The notes under the pieces are model-generated. The model saw only the letters and a program-made list of their open reading frames with translations, was not told where the DNA came from and ran no database searches. Shown here piece by piece: positions 6,775 through 46,244 of a stretch of 64,000 nucleotides of DNA (the stretch's first letter is position 1; each line of letters begins with the position of its first letter). Source of the stretch: Allostella vacuolata. GTDB taxonomy: Bacteria; Pseudomonadota; Alphaproteobacteria; ATCC43930; Allostellaceae. The translations under genes and the position numbers were made by a program. Location: contig AP019702.1 of the NCBI GenBank assembly GCA_006739055.1, positions 682,501 to 746,500 on the forward strand. The letters are read 5' to 3'.

Positions 6775-8510
6775 TCGCGGTCGGCCGCCGCCAGCGCCAG
6801 GCGGATGCGGTGGCCGGCGCCAAACAGCCACGAGGTCGGCATCAGCTGGATCTCCAGCAGGGCCGGCTCGCCCGGGCGCAGCAGCTCGGCATCGGCCACG
6901 CCCATCGGATGCCAGGGGCCGACATGGGGATAATCGGCCGGCGGCGGCGCCGTCCGGCGGAAGAGGGCGCGCAGGCACCCCTCGGTGACGTAGCGGGTGT
7001 GCCCGTCCGGCCCGACATCCTCCAGATAGAGGATGATGCCGGCGTCCTCCGCCTCCGACGCCAGCCAGATGCGGGCGACCGGGTGCCCGGTCACCTCGGT
7101 CGCCTGGTCGAGCGGCGGGCTGGTCCAGGTCGCCATGCGCCGGTCGCGGCCGTGCCAGTCGCCGTAATATTCCTCGACCGGCTGCCCGGCGATGCGCTCG
7201 TAGCGGGTATTGCGGCCGGTGCCGATGCCCTGGTCGGTGCGATAGCGGTCGGCGCCGGCGGCGGCGGGCGGCCGGGACGCCAGCGCCATTCCCTCCGCCA
7301 GGTACCAGGTCTGCGGCGCGGCTTCCGTCGGCGGCCACTGGTCGGCGGCCTTCCACGTCTCCTCGATCATGGTGAAGTAGTGGACCGGCTTTTCCGCCGG
7401 CAGGCCGGTGTCGCGGCCGGCCAGGTGCTGGTCGAAGAAGCGCAGCGTCTCGGCATGCATCTCGAAGCGCGGGCGGGCACCCGCGCGAGCCGGGCTGACG
7501 TTGGTCCGTGCGCCATGGTCCCAGGGGCCGAGCAGCAGGCGCTTGTCGGGGTTGGGCAGGGCGTTGAAGCGTCCGGCAGCACCATTGGTGTAGGCGGCCC
7601 CGTCCATCCAGCCGGAGACGCCATAGTGGGGCAGCGTCGCCGGGATGCCGTCCAGGTAGGTCCGCGGCGCCACCGTCGTCGCCCGGAAGGCCGGGTCGTG
7701 GGCGAAGGCGGCGTCGCGCGCGGTCAGCTGGGTGACGAAGGCGGTGGTGTCGAAGTTGGCGGCGTGCTCGGCGACCGCGGCCGCCACCTCGTGCCCGTCC
7801 GGGTCGTCGTCGACCGGCGCCGGACCGGCGAAATGGGGACCGGCGAAATAGGGGAACTCCTGCAGCACGTCGCGGCGGTCGAGGTCGAGCGCCTCGATCA
7901 TCCGGCCGTAGCCGCCCAGCATGCCGGTGTAGAGCAGGCCGCCCGGATAGAACATGTCGCCCCAGGTGTCCCAGACCGAGAAGGTCGGCATCACCGCACG
8001 GATCGCCGGGTGGCCGGTGGAGGCCGCGAAGTCGGCCGCCGCCCCGACATAGGAGATGCCGGTGATGCCGACCCGGCCGTCGCTCCAGGGCTGCCGGGCG
8101 ATCCAGTCGACCACGTCGTGATAGTCGAGCCGCTCGGCCGGCGAGCGGAAGCCCTCGCGCGCGCCGAACGACGCGCCGGTGCCGCGCACGTCGACGATCG
8201 CGACCGCGTAGCCGTAGGGCACGAAGAAGTCGCGATAGACGGCGTAGCTGGGGCTCGCCTCGGTCTGCGCCGGGGCGCCGTCGTTCAGGCGGAAGCGGCG
8301 GTAGTAGGGCGTGAAGAGGACGATCGCCGGCCGCGGCGTCGCCTCGCCGCCCGCCGGAAGATGGACATCGACCGCCAGCCGGACACCGTCGCGGGCGGCG
8401 ACGTAGAGTGAGCGCCGGGCGATGCCGCCCGTCTCGGTCTTCGGCCGCGCGGCCAGGTAGTCGGCCGGGCTGACGGTCCAGGCGGGCGATCCCTTGGTGC
8501 TGTCCGACAT
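6672..8510 (-). CDS. CocE/NonD-family serine hydrolase, 612 aa
   Basis: This is an alpha/beta hydrolase of the X-Pro dipeptidyl-peptidase/cocaine esterase type. The nucleophile elbow GISYVG places the catalytic Ser near residue 153. VDVRGTGASFG (about 107-116) is the conserved strand before it, and the C-terminal half is the jelly-roll domain typical of the family, with RIRLALAAADRDH near the end. Such enzymes cleave acyl esters or X-Pro peptides; the substrate is unknown. The ATG at 8510 is preceded by GGAGG. The gene is divergent from a dipeptidase and a peptide-binding protein, which hints at peptide or amide use. Confidence 0.88.
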   Translation of the reverse strand: MSDSTKGSPAWTVSPADYLAARPKTETGGIARRSLYVAARDGVRLAVDVHLPAGGEATPRPAIVLFTPYYRRFRLNDGAPAQTEASPSYAVYRDFFVPYGYAVAIVDVRGTGASFGAREGFRSPAERLDYHDVVDWIARQPWSDGRVGITGISYVGAAADFAASTGHPAIRAVMPTFSVWDTWGDMFYPGGLLYTGMLGGYGRMIEALDLDRRDVLQEFPYFAGPHFAGPAPVDDDPDGHEVAAAVAEHAANFDTTAFVTQLTARDAAFAHDPAFRATTVAPRTYLDGIPATLPHYGVSGWMDGAAYTNGAAGRFNALPNPDKRLLLGPWDHGARTNVSPARAGARPRFEMHAETLRFFDQHLAGRDTGLPAEKPVHYFTMIEETWKAADQWPPTEAAPQTWYLAEGMALASRPPAAAGADRYRTDQGIGTGRNTRYERIAGQPVEEYYGDWHGRDRRMATWTSPPLDQATEVTGHPVARIWLASEAEDAGIILYLEDVGPDGHTRYVTEGCLRALFRRTAPPPADYPHVGPWHPMGVADAELLRPGEPALLEIQLMPTSWLFGAGHRIRLALAAADRDHLARLPFGRSPLLTILREPGRPSSLELPVVPRT

Positions 8511-41731: not shown

Positions 41732-42694
41732 ATGCCCCAGCACTTCCTCCTCTCTGCCAAGGCCCGGACGCTCAGCGTCACGAAGGTCGCGCGGATGAGC
41801 CACGAGGAAGCCGCCCAGACCTTCCGGGCGCTGCGCTGGGCCAACAATGACGGCAACCCGGTGTGCCCGTCCTGCGGCTGCACGACCTGCTACGAGTACG
41901 CGACGCGGCCGATCTTCAAGTGCAAGGGCTGCGGCAAGCAGTTCTCCGTGACCTCGGGCACGCTGTTCGCCTCGCGCAAGCTGCCGATCCGGGATTACCT
42001 GCTCGCCATCGCGATCTTCGTGAACGCGGTCAAGGGTATCTCCGCCCTCCAGCTAGGCCGGGATCTCGACGTCTCCTACAAGTCGGCGTTTGTCCTGGCG
42101 CACAAGCTGCGCGAGGCGATGATGGCCGAGCAGGACGAGCTGATGCTGTCTGGGGTTGTGGAGGTCGATGGCGCCTACTTCGGCGGCACCGTCCGCCAGG
42201 AGAACCGGAAGGCCGATCGCAAGGACCGCCGGCTGCTGGTGAACCAGACCGGCAAGCGCCGCGTCGTCGTCGTGATGCGCGAGCGCGGCGGCCGGACCAT
42301 CACTGGCGTCTACCGCCACGAGGGCCAGGCCGTCCCGACGATCCTGGACCGCGTCGCCCGTGGCTCGACCATCATGGCCGACGAGGCGTCGTCCTGGGAT
42401 GACCTCCACGCCGTCTATGCGGCGAAGCGGATCAACCACTCGGTCGCGTTCTCCGATGATGGCGCCTGCACCAATCAGGCGGAAAGCTACTTCTCCCGGC
42501 TGCGCCGCGCCGAGTGGGGCCAGCACCACCACCTCAGCAGCCAGTATCTGGCCTGCTATGCCGGCGAAATGGCGTGGCGCGAAGACTACAGCCGTCGCTC
42601 GAACGGCGAGCAGTTCACGATGATCGCCGCCGGGGCGCTCAATCGGCCGGTGTCGCGGGTTTGGGCGGGGTACTGGCAGCGGGCGGTGCGGTGA
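41732..42694 (+). CDS. IS1595-family transposase, 320 aa
   Basis: An N-terminal zinc ribbon (CPSCGCTTCYEY and FKCKGCGKQF, about residues 45-73) precedes the DDE catalytic domain. Catalytic candidates are the Asp in VVEVDGAYFGG, the Asp in IMADEASSWDDL and the Glu in TNQAESYFSRLRR, matching the IS1595 arrangement. Length is usual for the family and the frame is intact. It recognises the 23-bp ends at 39444-39466 and 44057-44079. It ends immediately next to the convergent small membrane protein gene. Confidence 0.95.
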   Translation: MPQHFLLSAKARTLSVTKVARMSHEEAAQTFRALRWANNDGNPVCPSCGCTTCYEYATRPIFKCKGCGKQFSVTSGTLFASRKLPIRDYLLAIAIFVNAVKGISALQLGRDLDVSYKSAFVLAHKLREAMMAEQDELMLSGVVEVDGAYFGGTVRQENRKADRKDRRLLVNQTGKRRVVVVMRERGGRTITGVYRHEGQAVPTILDRVARGSTIMADEASSWDDLHAVYAAKRINHSVAFSDDGACTNQAESYFSRLRRAEWGQHHHLSSQYLACYAGEMAWREDYSRRSNGEQFTMIAAGALNRPVSRVWAGYWQRAVR

Positions 42695-44079: not shown

Positions 44080-44176
44080 CGTCCCTCGACTTCGCTCGGG
44101 ATGAGGGGCCTCTCCATTTGCAGACGCGCTGGTGGCAGAAAGAAAATACCTCACCCCGAGCCTGGTCGAGGGGCGC
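44079..44176. repeat. REP-like inverted pair flanking the transposon insertion
   Basis: GTCCCTCGACTTCGCTCGGG (from 44081) and its imperfect inverse CCCCGAGCCTGGTCGAGGGG (about 44153-44172) face each other around a ~45-bp spacer. This CCTCGA...CTCGGGATGAGG arrangement is like dispersed REP-type repeats of alphaproteobacteria. The transposon target sequence CGTCCCTC is part of the left arm. Confidence 0.65.
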
Positions 44177-44426
44177 TTTTGCCGATGTCCCGGCCTCGAC
44201 CTAGCCCAGCGCCACCAGCGCCCCGCGCAGGGCATCGGGGTCGGCCGGCGCGATCCCGTGCTCGGGATGAGGGGGCCTCTCCATTTGCAGACGCGCTGGT
44301 GGCAGAAGGAAAATACCTCACCCCGAGCCTGGTCGAGGGGCGCTTTTGCCGATGTCCCGGCTCCGACCTAGCCCAGCGCCACCAGCGCCGCGCGCAGGGC
44401 GTCGGGGTCGGCCGGGGCGATCCCGC
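44094..44426. repeat. 166-bp tandem duplication including the marR 3' end
   Basis: Copy A (44094-44259) and copy B (44260-44426) are about 95% identical, with a handful of substitutions and one extra G in B. Copy B contains the true 3' end of marR; copy A carries a non-functional duplicate of its last ~18 codons plus stop (from 44201 on). Each copy also has part of the REP-like pair. No other coding sequence is visible between 44080 and 44367. Confidence 0.9.
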
Positions 44427-44814
44427 GCTCGACCTCGGCATGGGTCGCCCGCCAGATCGGCAGGGCCCGGGCCAGGAGGGCGCGGCCGTCGTCGGTCAGC
44501 GTCATGCGGCGGCTGCGCCGGTCGGTCTCGTCGACGGACAGCGCCACCAGGCCGCGGCGCTCCAGCGGCTTCAGGTTGGCGGTCAAGGTCGTGCGGTCCA
44601 TCGCCAGCAGGCGGGAGATCCGGGCCATCGTCCCCGGCTCCGGCCGGTTCAGGGCCATCAGCAGCGAGAACTGCCCGTGCGTCAGCCCGACCGGCCGGAA
44701 CGCCTCGTCGAAGCGCCGGGCGAGCGCGCGGGCCGCGCGCTGCACATGCAGGCACAGGCAGGCGTCGCGCACCTCCAGGGCGACCGAGTGGGACAGGGCA
44801 TCGGAGTTTGACAT
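44368..44814 (-). CDS. MarR-family regulator, 148 aa
   Basis: A winged-helix regulator: helix 1 region CLCLHVQRAARALARRFDEA, recognition region ISRLLAMDRTTLTANLKPLE (about residues 66-85), and wing with DETDRRSRRMTLTDDGRAL. Its final ~20 codons lie in the tandem-duplicated segment. The start is 6 bases from a 24-bp perfect palindrome shared with the divergent MoaD-like gene, so it most likely represses itself and that operon. The inducer is unknown. Confidence 0.92.
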   Translation of the reverse strand: MSNSDALSHSVALEVRDACLCLHVQRAARALARRFDEAFRPVGLTHGQFSLLMALNRPEPGTMARISRLLAMDRTTLTANLKPLERRGLVALSVDETDRRSRRMTLTDDGRALLARALPIWRATHAEVERGIAPADPDALRAALVALG

Positions 44815-44819
44815 GGCCC

Positions 44820-44843
44820 ATTTACGTTGATATCAACGTAAAT
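44820..44843. promoter_or_regulatory. MarR operator: 24-bp perfect palindrome
   Basis: The half-site ATTTACGTTGAT is followed directly by its exact reverse complement. It fills most of the 46-bp gap between marR (start 44814) and the MoaD-like gene (start 44861), and by position and length it fits a MarR dimer site. Confidence 0.85.
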
Positions 44844-44860
44844 AGCAACAGGACAGCCGC

Positions 44861-45130
44861 ATGCCGACCGTATCCTTCACCCGCGCGCTCGAACGCTTCC
44901 TGGCCGCCCCGACGGTGGCGGTCGAGGGGGCGACGCTGGGTGCCGCGCTGGACGCGGTCTTCGCCGAGCGGCCGGCCCTGCGCGGCTATGTCCTGGATGA
45001 CCAGGGCGCGCTGCGCCGTCACGTCGCCGTCTTCGTGAACGGCCAGCTGGTGCGGGACCGCGACCGCCTGACCGACCCGGTCGCGGCCGACGACGAGATC
45101 CATGTCTTTCAGGCCCTGTCAGGTGGCTGA
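44861..45130 (+). CDS. MoaD/ThiS-like ubiquitin-fold sulfur-carrier protein, 89 aa
   Basis: A small beta-grasp protein: TLGAALDAVFAERPALRGYV (about residues 25-44), VAVFVNGQLVRD, and the C-terminal VFQALSGG ending in Gly-Gly, the group that is adenylated and thiocarboxylated in sulfur carriers. No activating E1-like or MoCo gene is adjacent. The next gene encodes a BNR-repeat protein; such MoaD-BNR pairs recur in bacteria but their job is not known. Under likely MarR control. Confidence 0.88.
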   Translation: MPTVSFTRALERFLAAPTVAVEGATLGAALDAVFAERPALRGYVLDDQGALRRHVAVFVNGQLVRDRDRLTDPVAADDEIHVFQALSGG

Positions 45131-45155
45131 CGGCGGGTGGCGGATGGAGGAACCC

Positions 45156-46244
45156 ATGAGCGATCGCCTGCATGTCGGGACCCGCAAGGGCCTGTTCGAG
45201 CTGGAGCGGGGGCCCGGCGGCTGGGACATCGTCTCGACCCATTTCCTGGGCGACCCGGTGTCGGCGGTGCTGCAATCGGCCGACGGCGCGCTGCTGGCCG
45301 CGCTCGACCTCGGCCATTTCGGGGCCAAGCTGTGGCGGCGGTCGCCCGCGGGCGAATGGCGGGAGCTGGCCGCGCCGGCCTTCCCGCCCAAGCCCGAGGA
45401 CGCGGCCGACGATCCCCATCCCTGGTCGCTCGGCCGCATCTGGGCCCTGCAGCCGGGCGGGGTGCCGGGCCGCATCTGGGCCGGGACCATGCCGGGCGGC
45501 CTGTTCCGCTCCGACGACGACGGCGAGACCTGGCAGCTCAACGAGCCCCTGTGGCGGATGCCCGACCGGCGCCGTTGGATGGGGGTCGCGGGCGGCGAGC
45601 AGCCGGGCATCAGCGCCGTGCTGGTCGACCCGCGCAACCCGGCCGACATCCGGCTCGGCGTGTCGACCGCCGGCATCTGGGCCACCACCGACACCGGGGC
45701 GACCTGGAGCCTGATCAACCAGGGCATGTACAACGAGTACATGCCGCCCGGGCAGGAGGGCGACCCGATCTCCCAGGACATCCACCAGATCGCCCATTGC
45801 GCCGCCCGGCCCGAGGTCATGTGGTGCCAGCACCACAACGGCGTCTTCCGCTCCGAGGATGCCGGCGCCAACTGGCGCGAGCTGGCGGCGATCCGCCCGT
45901 CCAAGTTCGGCTTCGCCGTCGCAGCCCACCCGCACGACCCGGACACCGCCTGGTTCGTGCCCTCGGCCAAGGACGAGCGGCGCTTCCCGGTCGACGGCCA
46001 GGTGGTGGTCGCCCGCACCCGGGATGGCGGCCGCAGCTTCGAGATCCTGCGCCAGGGCCTGCCGCAGCGCCACGCCTACGACCTGGTGTGGCGCCATGGC
46101 CTGTCGGTCGACCCGGACGGCCGGCGGCTCGCCTTCGGCTCCACCTCGGGCGGCCTGTGGGTCTCCGAGGATGGCGGCGAATCCTGGGCCGCCCCGGATG
46201 CCCGCCTGCCGCCGGTCGCCTGCGTGCGCTTCGCCGGGGCGTAG
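45156..46244 (+). CDS. BNR/sialidase-like beta-propeller protein, 362 aa
   Basis: A repeat protein of the exo-alpha-sialidase/WD40-like glycosyl hydrolase superfamily. Asp-box-type repeats are visible: SDDDGETWQL, TDTGATWSL, SEDAGANWREL, TRDGGRSFEI and SEDGGESWAA, spaced as blades of a propeller. No signal peptide is seen. Sialidase activity is not implied, because the catalytic Arg triad cannot be assigned. ATG at 45156 follows GGAGGAA. It starts 25 bases after the MoaD-like gene. Confidence 0.85.
   Translation: MSDRLHVGTRKGLFELERGPGGWDIVSTHFLGDPVSAVLQSADGALLAALDLGHFGAKLWRRSPAGEWRELAAPAFPPKPEDAADDPHPWSLGRIWALQPGGVPGRIWAGTMPGGLFRSDDDGETWQLNEPLWRMPDRRRWMGVAGGEQPGISAVLVDPRNPADIRLGVSTAGIWATTDTGATWSLINQGMYNEYMPPGQEGDPISQDIHQIAHCAARPEVMWCQHHNGVFRSEDAGANWRELAAIRPSKFGFAVAAHPHDPDTAWFVPSAKDERRFPVDGQVVVARTRDGGRSFEILRQGLPQRHAYDLVWRHGLSVDPDGRRLAFGSTSGGLWVSEDGGESWAAPDARLPPVACVRFAGA

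Follow-up and report, generated by a model that had tools for sequence, protein, structure and literature searches.

Introduction

Can a ubiquitin-like sulfur carrier, or a protein tag, be dedicated to a beta-propeller protein? A handful of partner folds is known for ubiquitin-like sulfur carriers, and a propeller would be an unusual addition. The question is raised by a locus in the window, i.e. the whole 64-kb stretch of DNA that was analysed (C1:682501-746500 of the genome), in which a gene for a small ubiquitin-fold protein is followed by a gene for a BNR-repeat propeller, both lying divergently from a marR gene. The answer that we favour, and that we hold to be evenly poised between right and wrong, is that the two proteins form a dedicated module in which a CysO-type thiocarboxylate carrier would serve a propeller enzyme, the transfer of sulfur being inferred.

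Organization of the locus

The order marR, palindrome, Gly-Gly protein and BNR propeller that the earlier note had described is borne out, with its coordinates, by the sequence and the open reading frames (Table 1), and all three proteins pass the respective Pfam cut-offs (MarR_2 PF12802, ThiS PF02597 and BNR PF02012). The element between the divergent genes is indeed a perfect palindrome of 24 bp, i.e. two arms of 12 + 12 nt (44820-44831 and 44832-44843) with a gap of 0 and 100% complementarity. It is separated by 5 bp from marR and by 17 bp from the carrier gene, which in turn is followed after 25 bp by the propeller gene. According to the ORF list a start at the ATG of position 45102 would make the propeller gene run into the MoaD-like one, and the start given in Table 1 is the likely one. 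With one mismatch allowed the 64-kb window has a single copy of the core GTTGATATCAAC versus 0.01 copies expected from shuffles; the core also has a single occurrence, i.e. no second site, in the 5.8-Mb genome, and a search with the inner 22 bp of the palindrome, in which three mismatches were tolerated, matches this place only.

Table 1. Features of the locus; positions refer to the window.
Feature	Position	Strand	Basis
MarR-family regulator, 148 aa, N-terminal CxC (C19, C21)	44368-44814	-	Pfam MarR_2
Perfect 24-bp palindrome, probable MarR operator between divergent genes; core GTTGATATCAAC at 44826-44837	44820-44843		Inverted-repeat search
ThiS/MoaD-superfamily (CysO/SAMP1-like) ubiquitin-fold protein, 89 aa, C-terminus FQALSGG	44861-45130	+	Pfam, NCBIfam and PDB searches
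Seven-bladed Asp-box (BNR) beta-propeller, 362 aa, near PDB 3b7f	45156-46244	+	Pfam, predicted model

Two further features lie close by. A 160-bp direct repeat (44105-44264 and 44272-44431, 96%) copies the 3' end of marR plus a dispersed element, and a 241-bp query over this repeat has 54 matches in the genome, many covering only about 80-90 bp. The ORF at 41732-42694, near the pair, presumably resembles an IS1595-type transposase.

A ubiquitin-fold protein with a conserved Gly-Gly end

By its sequence the carrier belongs to the ThiS/MoaD superfamily (PF02597, 42.2 bits at a cut-off of 22.5, E 1.2e-10). Its predicted model (pLDDT 89.9) matches 1v8c, CysO and SAMP1 with Z scores of 12-14, Moco MoaD subunits with 9-10 and ThiS with 5.5, the entries 1v8c, 4n6e and 3po0 being tied (Z 13.1-13.7). 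A profile search of the PDB is led by CysO-type carriers (4n6e_B, 2.7e-13, followed by 3dwg_C, 6.1e-12), single-sequence and Foldseek searches of the PDB are led by SAMP1 (3po0), and SAMP1 (NF041918) is also the best NCBIfam match, at 59.1 bits and thus below the cut-off of 60. The SAMP1 matches would suit a SAMP/Urm1-like conjugated tag that has the propeller as its substrate receptor or sole target, and propellers are common substrate receptors. However, four other carriers reach just 36-47 bits on the SAMP1 model, and we regard a tag as rather improbable. Unlike SAMP1 the window carrier is bacterial and paired with a propeller.

The earlier note had let its reading stand or fall with the Gly-Gly end, and this end is conserved: the window protein ends in SGG, 122 of the 127 paired carriers have an exact C-terminal Gly-Gly, and 126 contain the motif. 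Four have residues after it (two in L055, 17 each in L172 and L174, 24 in L188) and, if the frames are right, would need trimming of the tail before activation. Across 18 aligned rows the residues L10, D46, R52, H54 and the final GG are invariant; in the dereplicated set of 80 carriers H54 is present in 96% of the rows in which the carrier gene comes first versus 83% of those in which the propeller gene does. The last residue is missing from the non-window rows of one alignment (A1) and the last Gly is trimmed from most rows of the profile used for searching (A2), and it is restored in a third alignment (A3).

These numbers bear on another explanation, in which the small protein serves as a structural or regulatory subunit and its unsulfurated Gly-Gly tail is plugged into the propeller; the propeller would then be a hydrolase, lactonase or isomerase of the ordinary kind that belongs to a stress regulon. 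The paired carrier L158 (Nonomuraea), which lacks GG, would fit such a subunit, whereas it is not obvious why a mere plug should have the motif that the other 126 carriers contain, and the top rank of the CysO sulfur carrier in the PDB profile search also speaks against it. We consider a subunit of this kind a serious but clearly less than even possibility.

Carrier and propeller form a gene pair

The pairing claimed for the window holds far beyond it. When the propeller alone was used as query against 289 genomes of the class, 48 were positive at E 1e-20, and at 41 of these 48 loci, as seen in widened flanks, a carrier gene adjoins on the same strand. A wide scan that covered 84,980 species with a single genome each yielded at least 549 confirmed propeller relatives, and the best 80 of these, picked by the propeller alone, have the carrier in 80 cases; judged by record titles and tree labels, these 80 span Pseudomonadota, Planctomycetota, Acidobacteriota, Verrucomicrobiota, Actinomycetota and Myxococcota. 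All sets combined, including nine records of a plasmid collection, a carrier lies within 1.5 kb on the same strand at 127 of 137 propeller loci, at least one genome being counted in two sets (L045, L169) and some rows being close relatives; the widest gap between the two genes is 770 bp (L117).

The reverse test starts from the carrier. Profile A2 matches 43 of the 289 class genomes at E 1e-5, and 42 of these 43 have the carrier beside a propeller, i.e. on the basis of this search the carrier subfamily occurs almost only with a propeller. All but two of the 43 fall within the 48 propeller genomes, which corresponds to a Fisher p of 5e-40 (41/7 vs 2/239), an optimistic value that is uncorrected for kinship. 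In one of the two remaining genomes (G227) the carrier also adjoins a propeller, albeit a more divergent one (L253). The other (G051) encodes what looks like an ordinary CysO-type protein, which ends in VALAGG and adjoins a rhodanese-E1, a single protein with a rhodanese and a ThiF domain (L252, 2067-3604), with no propeller in the 7 kb examined.

Ten propeller loci are carrier-less. Seven of them have flanks on both sides (L036, L037, L160, L166, L199, L203 and L204), among them L166, whose propeller is 75% identical to that of the window, and at three class loci (L201, L210 and L211) the contig stops on the side on which the carrier could be. A search of the ten genomes or records with profile A2 was empty; the 289-genome search serves as positive control for the seven class genomes, and for L036, L037 and L160 the plasmid-collection record itself is the whole search space. 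Five of these loci (L037, L160, L199, L203 and L204, including Rhodobacter and Marivivens) form a branch of carrier-less propellers, and the key residues are unchanged in the four of them that were compared.

Among the 137 loci no open frame joins carrier and propeller into a fusion, which counts against the sulfur-carrier reading. The pair has no PADLOC match that would indicate a role in defence. Clustering of the neighbours at 80 loci gives three largest clusters that overlap the pair region (247/259, 300/317 and 87/95 frames) and are thus the pair or its shadow frames. The next cluster (11/40 groups, 18 loci) consists, by eye, of ABC-transporter ATPases at scattered positions, and that this clustering of 80 loci brought out no other conserved outside neighbour is a second point against a conjugated tag. 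Distances between carriers correlate with those between propellers (r 0.82 for all rows, 0.42 for carrier-first and 0.85 for propeller-first rows), values that are inflated by shared ancestry. Taken together, we are close to certain, judging from these sequence comparisons, that carrier and propeller constitute a dedicated two-protein module.

The pair appears to be widespread in bacteria and unstudied. Literature searches, in the part of the result lists that was available, returned no published account that we recognised of the pair or the operator core. Text searches for the pair in the accessible portions of PMC1779556 and PMC2948915 gave no match, and in the portion of PMC1949818 at hand a propeller domain appears as an abbreviation in a figure legend among domain architectures.

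The propeller

The propeller matches the Asp-box repeat PF02012 in two stretches (33.7 bits, cut-off 27) and Sortilin-Vps10 (33.7 bits, cut-off 33), and its predicted model (pLDDT 92.4) has seven blades by strand count. The only close solved relative is the same kind of seven-bladed Asp-box propeller, Reut_B4987 from Ralstonia eutropha (3b7f; Z 47, rmsd 2.0 over 345 residues, 31% identity). The next structure has a Z of 27, and the matches below 3b7f include propellers of the 6-phosphogluconolactonase type, in line with an ordinary enzyme that has the small protein as subunit, and, among the more distant ones, family 74 glycoside hydrolases.

Some relatives are named 'exo-alpha-sialidase' in public records, and together with the Asp-box repeats and the family 74 matches this might be taken to mean that the propeller is a sialidase or another exo-glycosidase, as annotated, and that its neighbour is incidental. 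Yet the sialidase-like BNR_2 domain scores 16.6 bits, under its cut-off of 31.4, the protein starts with MSDRLHVGTRKGLF and has no signal peptide visible by eye, glycosidases reach at most Z 27 versus 47 for 3b7f, and the co-occurrence with the carrier, by the Fisher test above, is not incidental. Moreover, the function of 3b7f is listed as not known in the portion of PMC2716378 that was available. The label 'sialidase' is thus, on sequence grounds, unsupported and an exo-glycosidase very improbable.

For residue conservation 68 carrier-first, 12 propeller-first and five carrier-less rows were compared, L210 being omitted as outlier and fragments being dropped. In all three groups K11, G12, G56, H210, Q225, H227, G252, F253, P269, R276, G301-P303 and R313 are kept at 100%. 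From the strand order of the predicted model, used without coordinates, most of these residues appear to sit in loops of one side; the loop face on one side is the usual binding face of propellers. The carrier-less propellers compared (L036, L037, L160, L199 and L204) keep identical key residues, so the chemistry of the propeller may not need this carrier. This would fit a subunit, and it is the main weakness of the sulfur-carrier reading, implying that either another carrier can serve these propellers or the carrier only assists.

Activating enzyme and molybdenum cofactor

A sulfur carrier would have to be activated by an E1-like enzyme. The earlier note had pointed out that none is encoded near the pair, which is true: the search for a partner found a single PF00899 protein in the genome (C1:5811327-5812043, 267 aa, without rhodanese domain), far from the pair. 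Likewise, with this E1 as seed and E 1e-5, none was found beside the carrier in the flanks, some of them short, of the 137 loci. PF00899 is found in 48 of 48 propeller genomes, in 47 of them over the cut-off, the weak match being in a genome that is 70% complete (G226), and the activating E1 of CysO systems can be shared, as MoeZR serves MoaD1, MoaD2 and CysO (PMC3227635, available part). Given this sharing and the match in every propeller genome, the absence of a nearby E1 is unremarkable. Sharing is not automatic, since in the same part of PMC3227635 CysO is not sulfurated by MoeBR. Proteins of the E1 type are widespread, with PF00899 matches in 12 of 14 control genomes, so that their presence permits activation of the carrier and is no proof of it.

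A role of the pair in the synthesis of molybdenum cofactor or of a variant cofactor might be considered, as MoaE is encoded in 46 of the 48 propeller genomes, a count that covers propeller genomes alone. However, the genome has its own Moco moaD (C1:4889975-4890214) directly upstream of moaE (at 4890241), its product shares only 32% identity with the window carrier over 50 residues, and MoaE is absent, at E 1e-5, from the flanks of all 137 loci; we judge such a role highly unlikely. The candidate identity of the carrier with the Moco MoaD itself was rejected in view of the other moaD directly before moaE. A function in MoCo synthesis was, besides loss of the Gly-Gly end, the outcome that the earlier note had named as refuting its reading, which at the level of sequence withstands both.

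Gene orders, MarR regulators and the operator core

The 86 dereplicated rows have the carrier upstream of the propeller (68), downstream (12) or not at all (6). In a quick tree of the propellers the carrier-first rows lie on one side of a branch (support 95), with the propeller-first and carrier-less rows on the opposite side. A divergent marR together with GTTGATATCAAC recurs in both gene orders. The association of marR and palindrome noticed in the window is found again in 8 of 8 intergenic stretches of marR operons compared, i.e. two carrier-first ones (the window and its sister) and six propeller-first ones, all of which have the core. The palindrome is thus the probable, sequence-predicted operator of the MarR protein.

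In 147 stretches, comprising class, named and operator-site loci and including the window, there are 17 MarR matches, 16 of which, that of the window among them, contain the CxC motif. In 14 of the 17 the exact 12-mer lies within 160 bp of the end of the MarR frame, and the 10-bp core alone is found in one more. L195 has no 12-mer, and in L191 it lies at position 7108 and was missed by the distance count because the open frame is long. MarR is confined to part of the family, 75 of the 80 named loci having no MarR match. The conserved N-terminal cysteines suggest that the regulator belongs with the cysteine-sensing MarR proteins, and it may have a redox role. It is like OhrR-type regulators in fold and in conserved cysteines near the N-terminus, and the OhrR layout has one cysteine. 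In contrast to OhrR, it has a CxC, the core GTTGATATCAAC and other neighbour genes, and on the OhrR NCBIfam model it scores 46 bits, far under the cut-off of 200.

The 12-mer is found in 17 of 23 propeller genomes searched, and a backwards control pattern in none. Of the 32 sites counted, 11 are at the pair and 21 elsewhere, 20 of which were examined. Thirteen of these 20 lie within 4 kb of a VOC, DUF1428, SnoaL, YCII or ArsR gene, and seven have none of these families; 40 arbitrary 13-kb windows from the same genomes contain none either. If the sites that supplied the seeds (L142, L143, L145 and L146) are left out, 9 of 16 remain (one-sided Fisher p 1.5e-6). VOC, YCII, DUF1428 or SnoaL genes also occur in the flanks of the pair itself, at 5 of 48 class and 12 of 80 named loci versus 0 of 40 controls (one-sided Fisher p 0.007, or 0.010 without L039, the source of two seeds; the loci are not independent). 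At L039 the core precedes VOC and YCII genes that themselves stand before carrier and propeller. With these families at its sites, the operator core seems to mark a stress or detoxification regulon. None of the gene families recognised at these sites is known for sulfur transfer, again in keeping with a mere subunit, and detoxification that involves no sulfur chemistry would explain the regulon equally well as the sulfur-carrier reading.

Discussion

Based on these findings we speculate on how a thiocarboxylate carrier and a propeller might work together. The single MoeB/ThiF-like E1 of the genome would adenylate the C-terminal Gly-Gly of the carrier, which would lead to a thiocarboxylate, and the carrier would dock on the loop-rich face of the propeller. 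There, K11, H210, Q225, H227, R276 and R313 may line a polar pocket for a small substrate, probably an anion or an electrophile, which the sulfur of the carrier could then attack. The MarR protein would be a repressor that occupies the palindrome, responds through its CxC to redox changes or electrophiles, and releases the pair under chemical stress; in relatives the same operator core marks VOC, DUF1428, SnoaL-type and ArsR genes, too. In its widest form the proposal is tentative, i.e. we think it somewhat less likely to be right than wrong: the propeller would be the enzyme to which a ubiquitin-like carrier delivers its sulfur and represent a fold class new to thiocarboxylate-dependent sulfur transfer, present in several bacterial phyla, in part induced by stress, and making or detoxifying some compound.

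The closest parallels are the CysO-CysM-MoeZR system of Mycobacterium and the CysO/BexX pair, as both, like the window pair, bring together a ubiquitin-fold protein of some 90 aa that ends in GG and an acceptor enzyme of its own; the title of PDB entry 4n6e describes CysO in complex with the acceptor enzyme BexX, which we take to be a thiosugar synthase. In contrast to these systems the window carrier has a beta-propeller as its neighbour in place of a cysteine synthase or thiosugar synthase, its genome's E1 is located elsewhere and has no rhodanese domain, and the carrier family has its own signature, D46-R52-H54, to which QALSGG is added in the carrier-first group.

A large carrier-propeller family that crosses phyla would add a new partner for ubiquitin-like sulfur carriers and correct the 'sialidase' mislabel in some records, and it offers a clean two-gene system for asking which other functions Gly-Gly proteins have in bacteria. 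In addition, the operator core provides a testable regulon for the little-known small families DUF1428, YCII and VOC. A short conserved ORF, MEGPMN[YF]AGKAFSLVCNSEKMVGG..., of which a 40-aa piece matches no Pfam family, lies near the core in two genomes of one genus (L147, site 2073; L148, site 2090).
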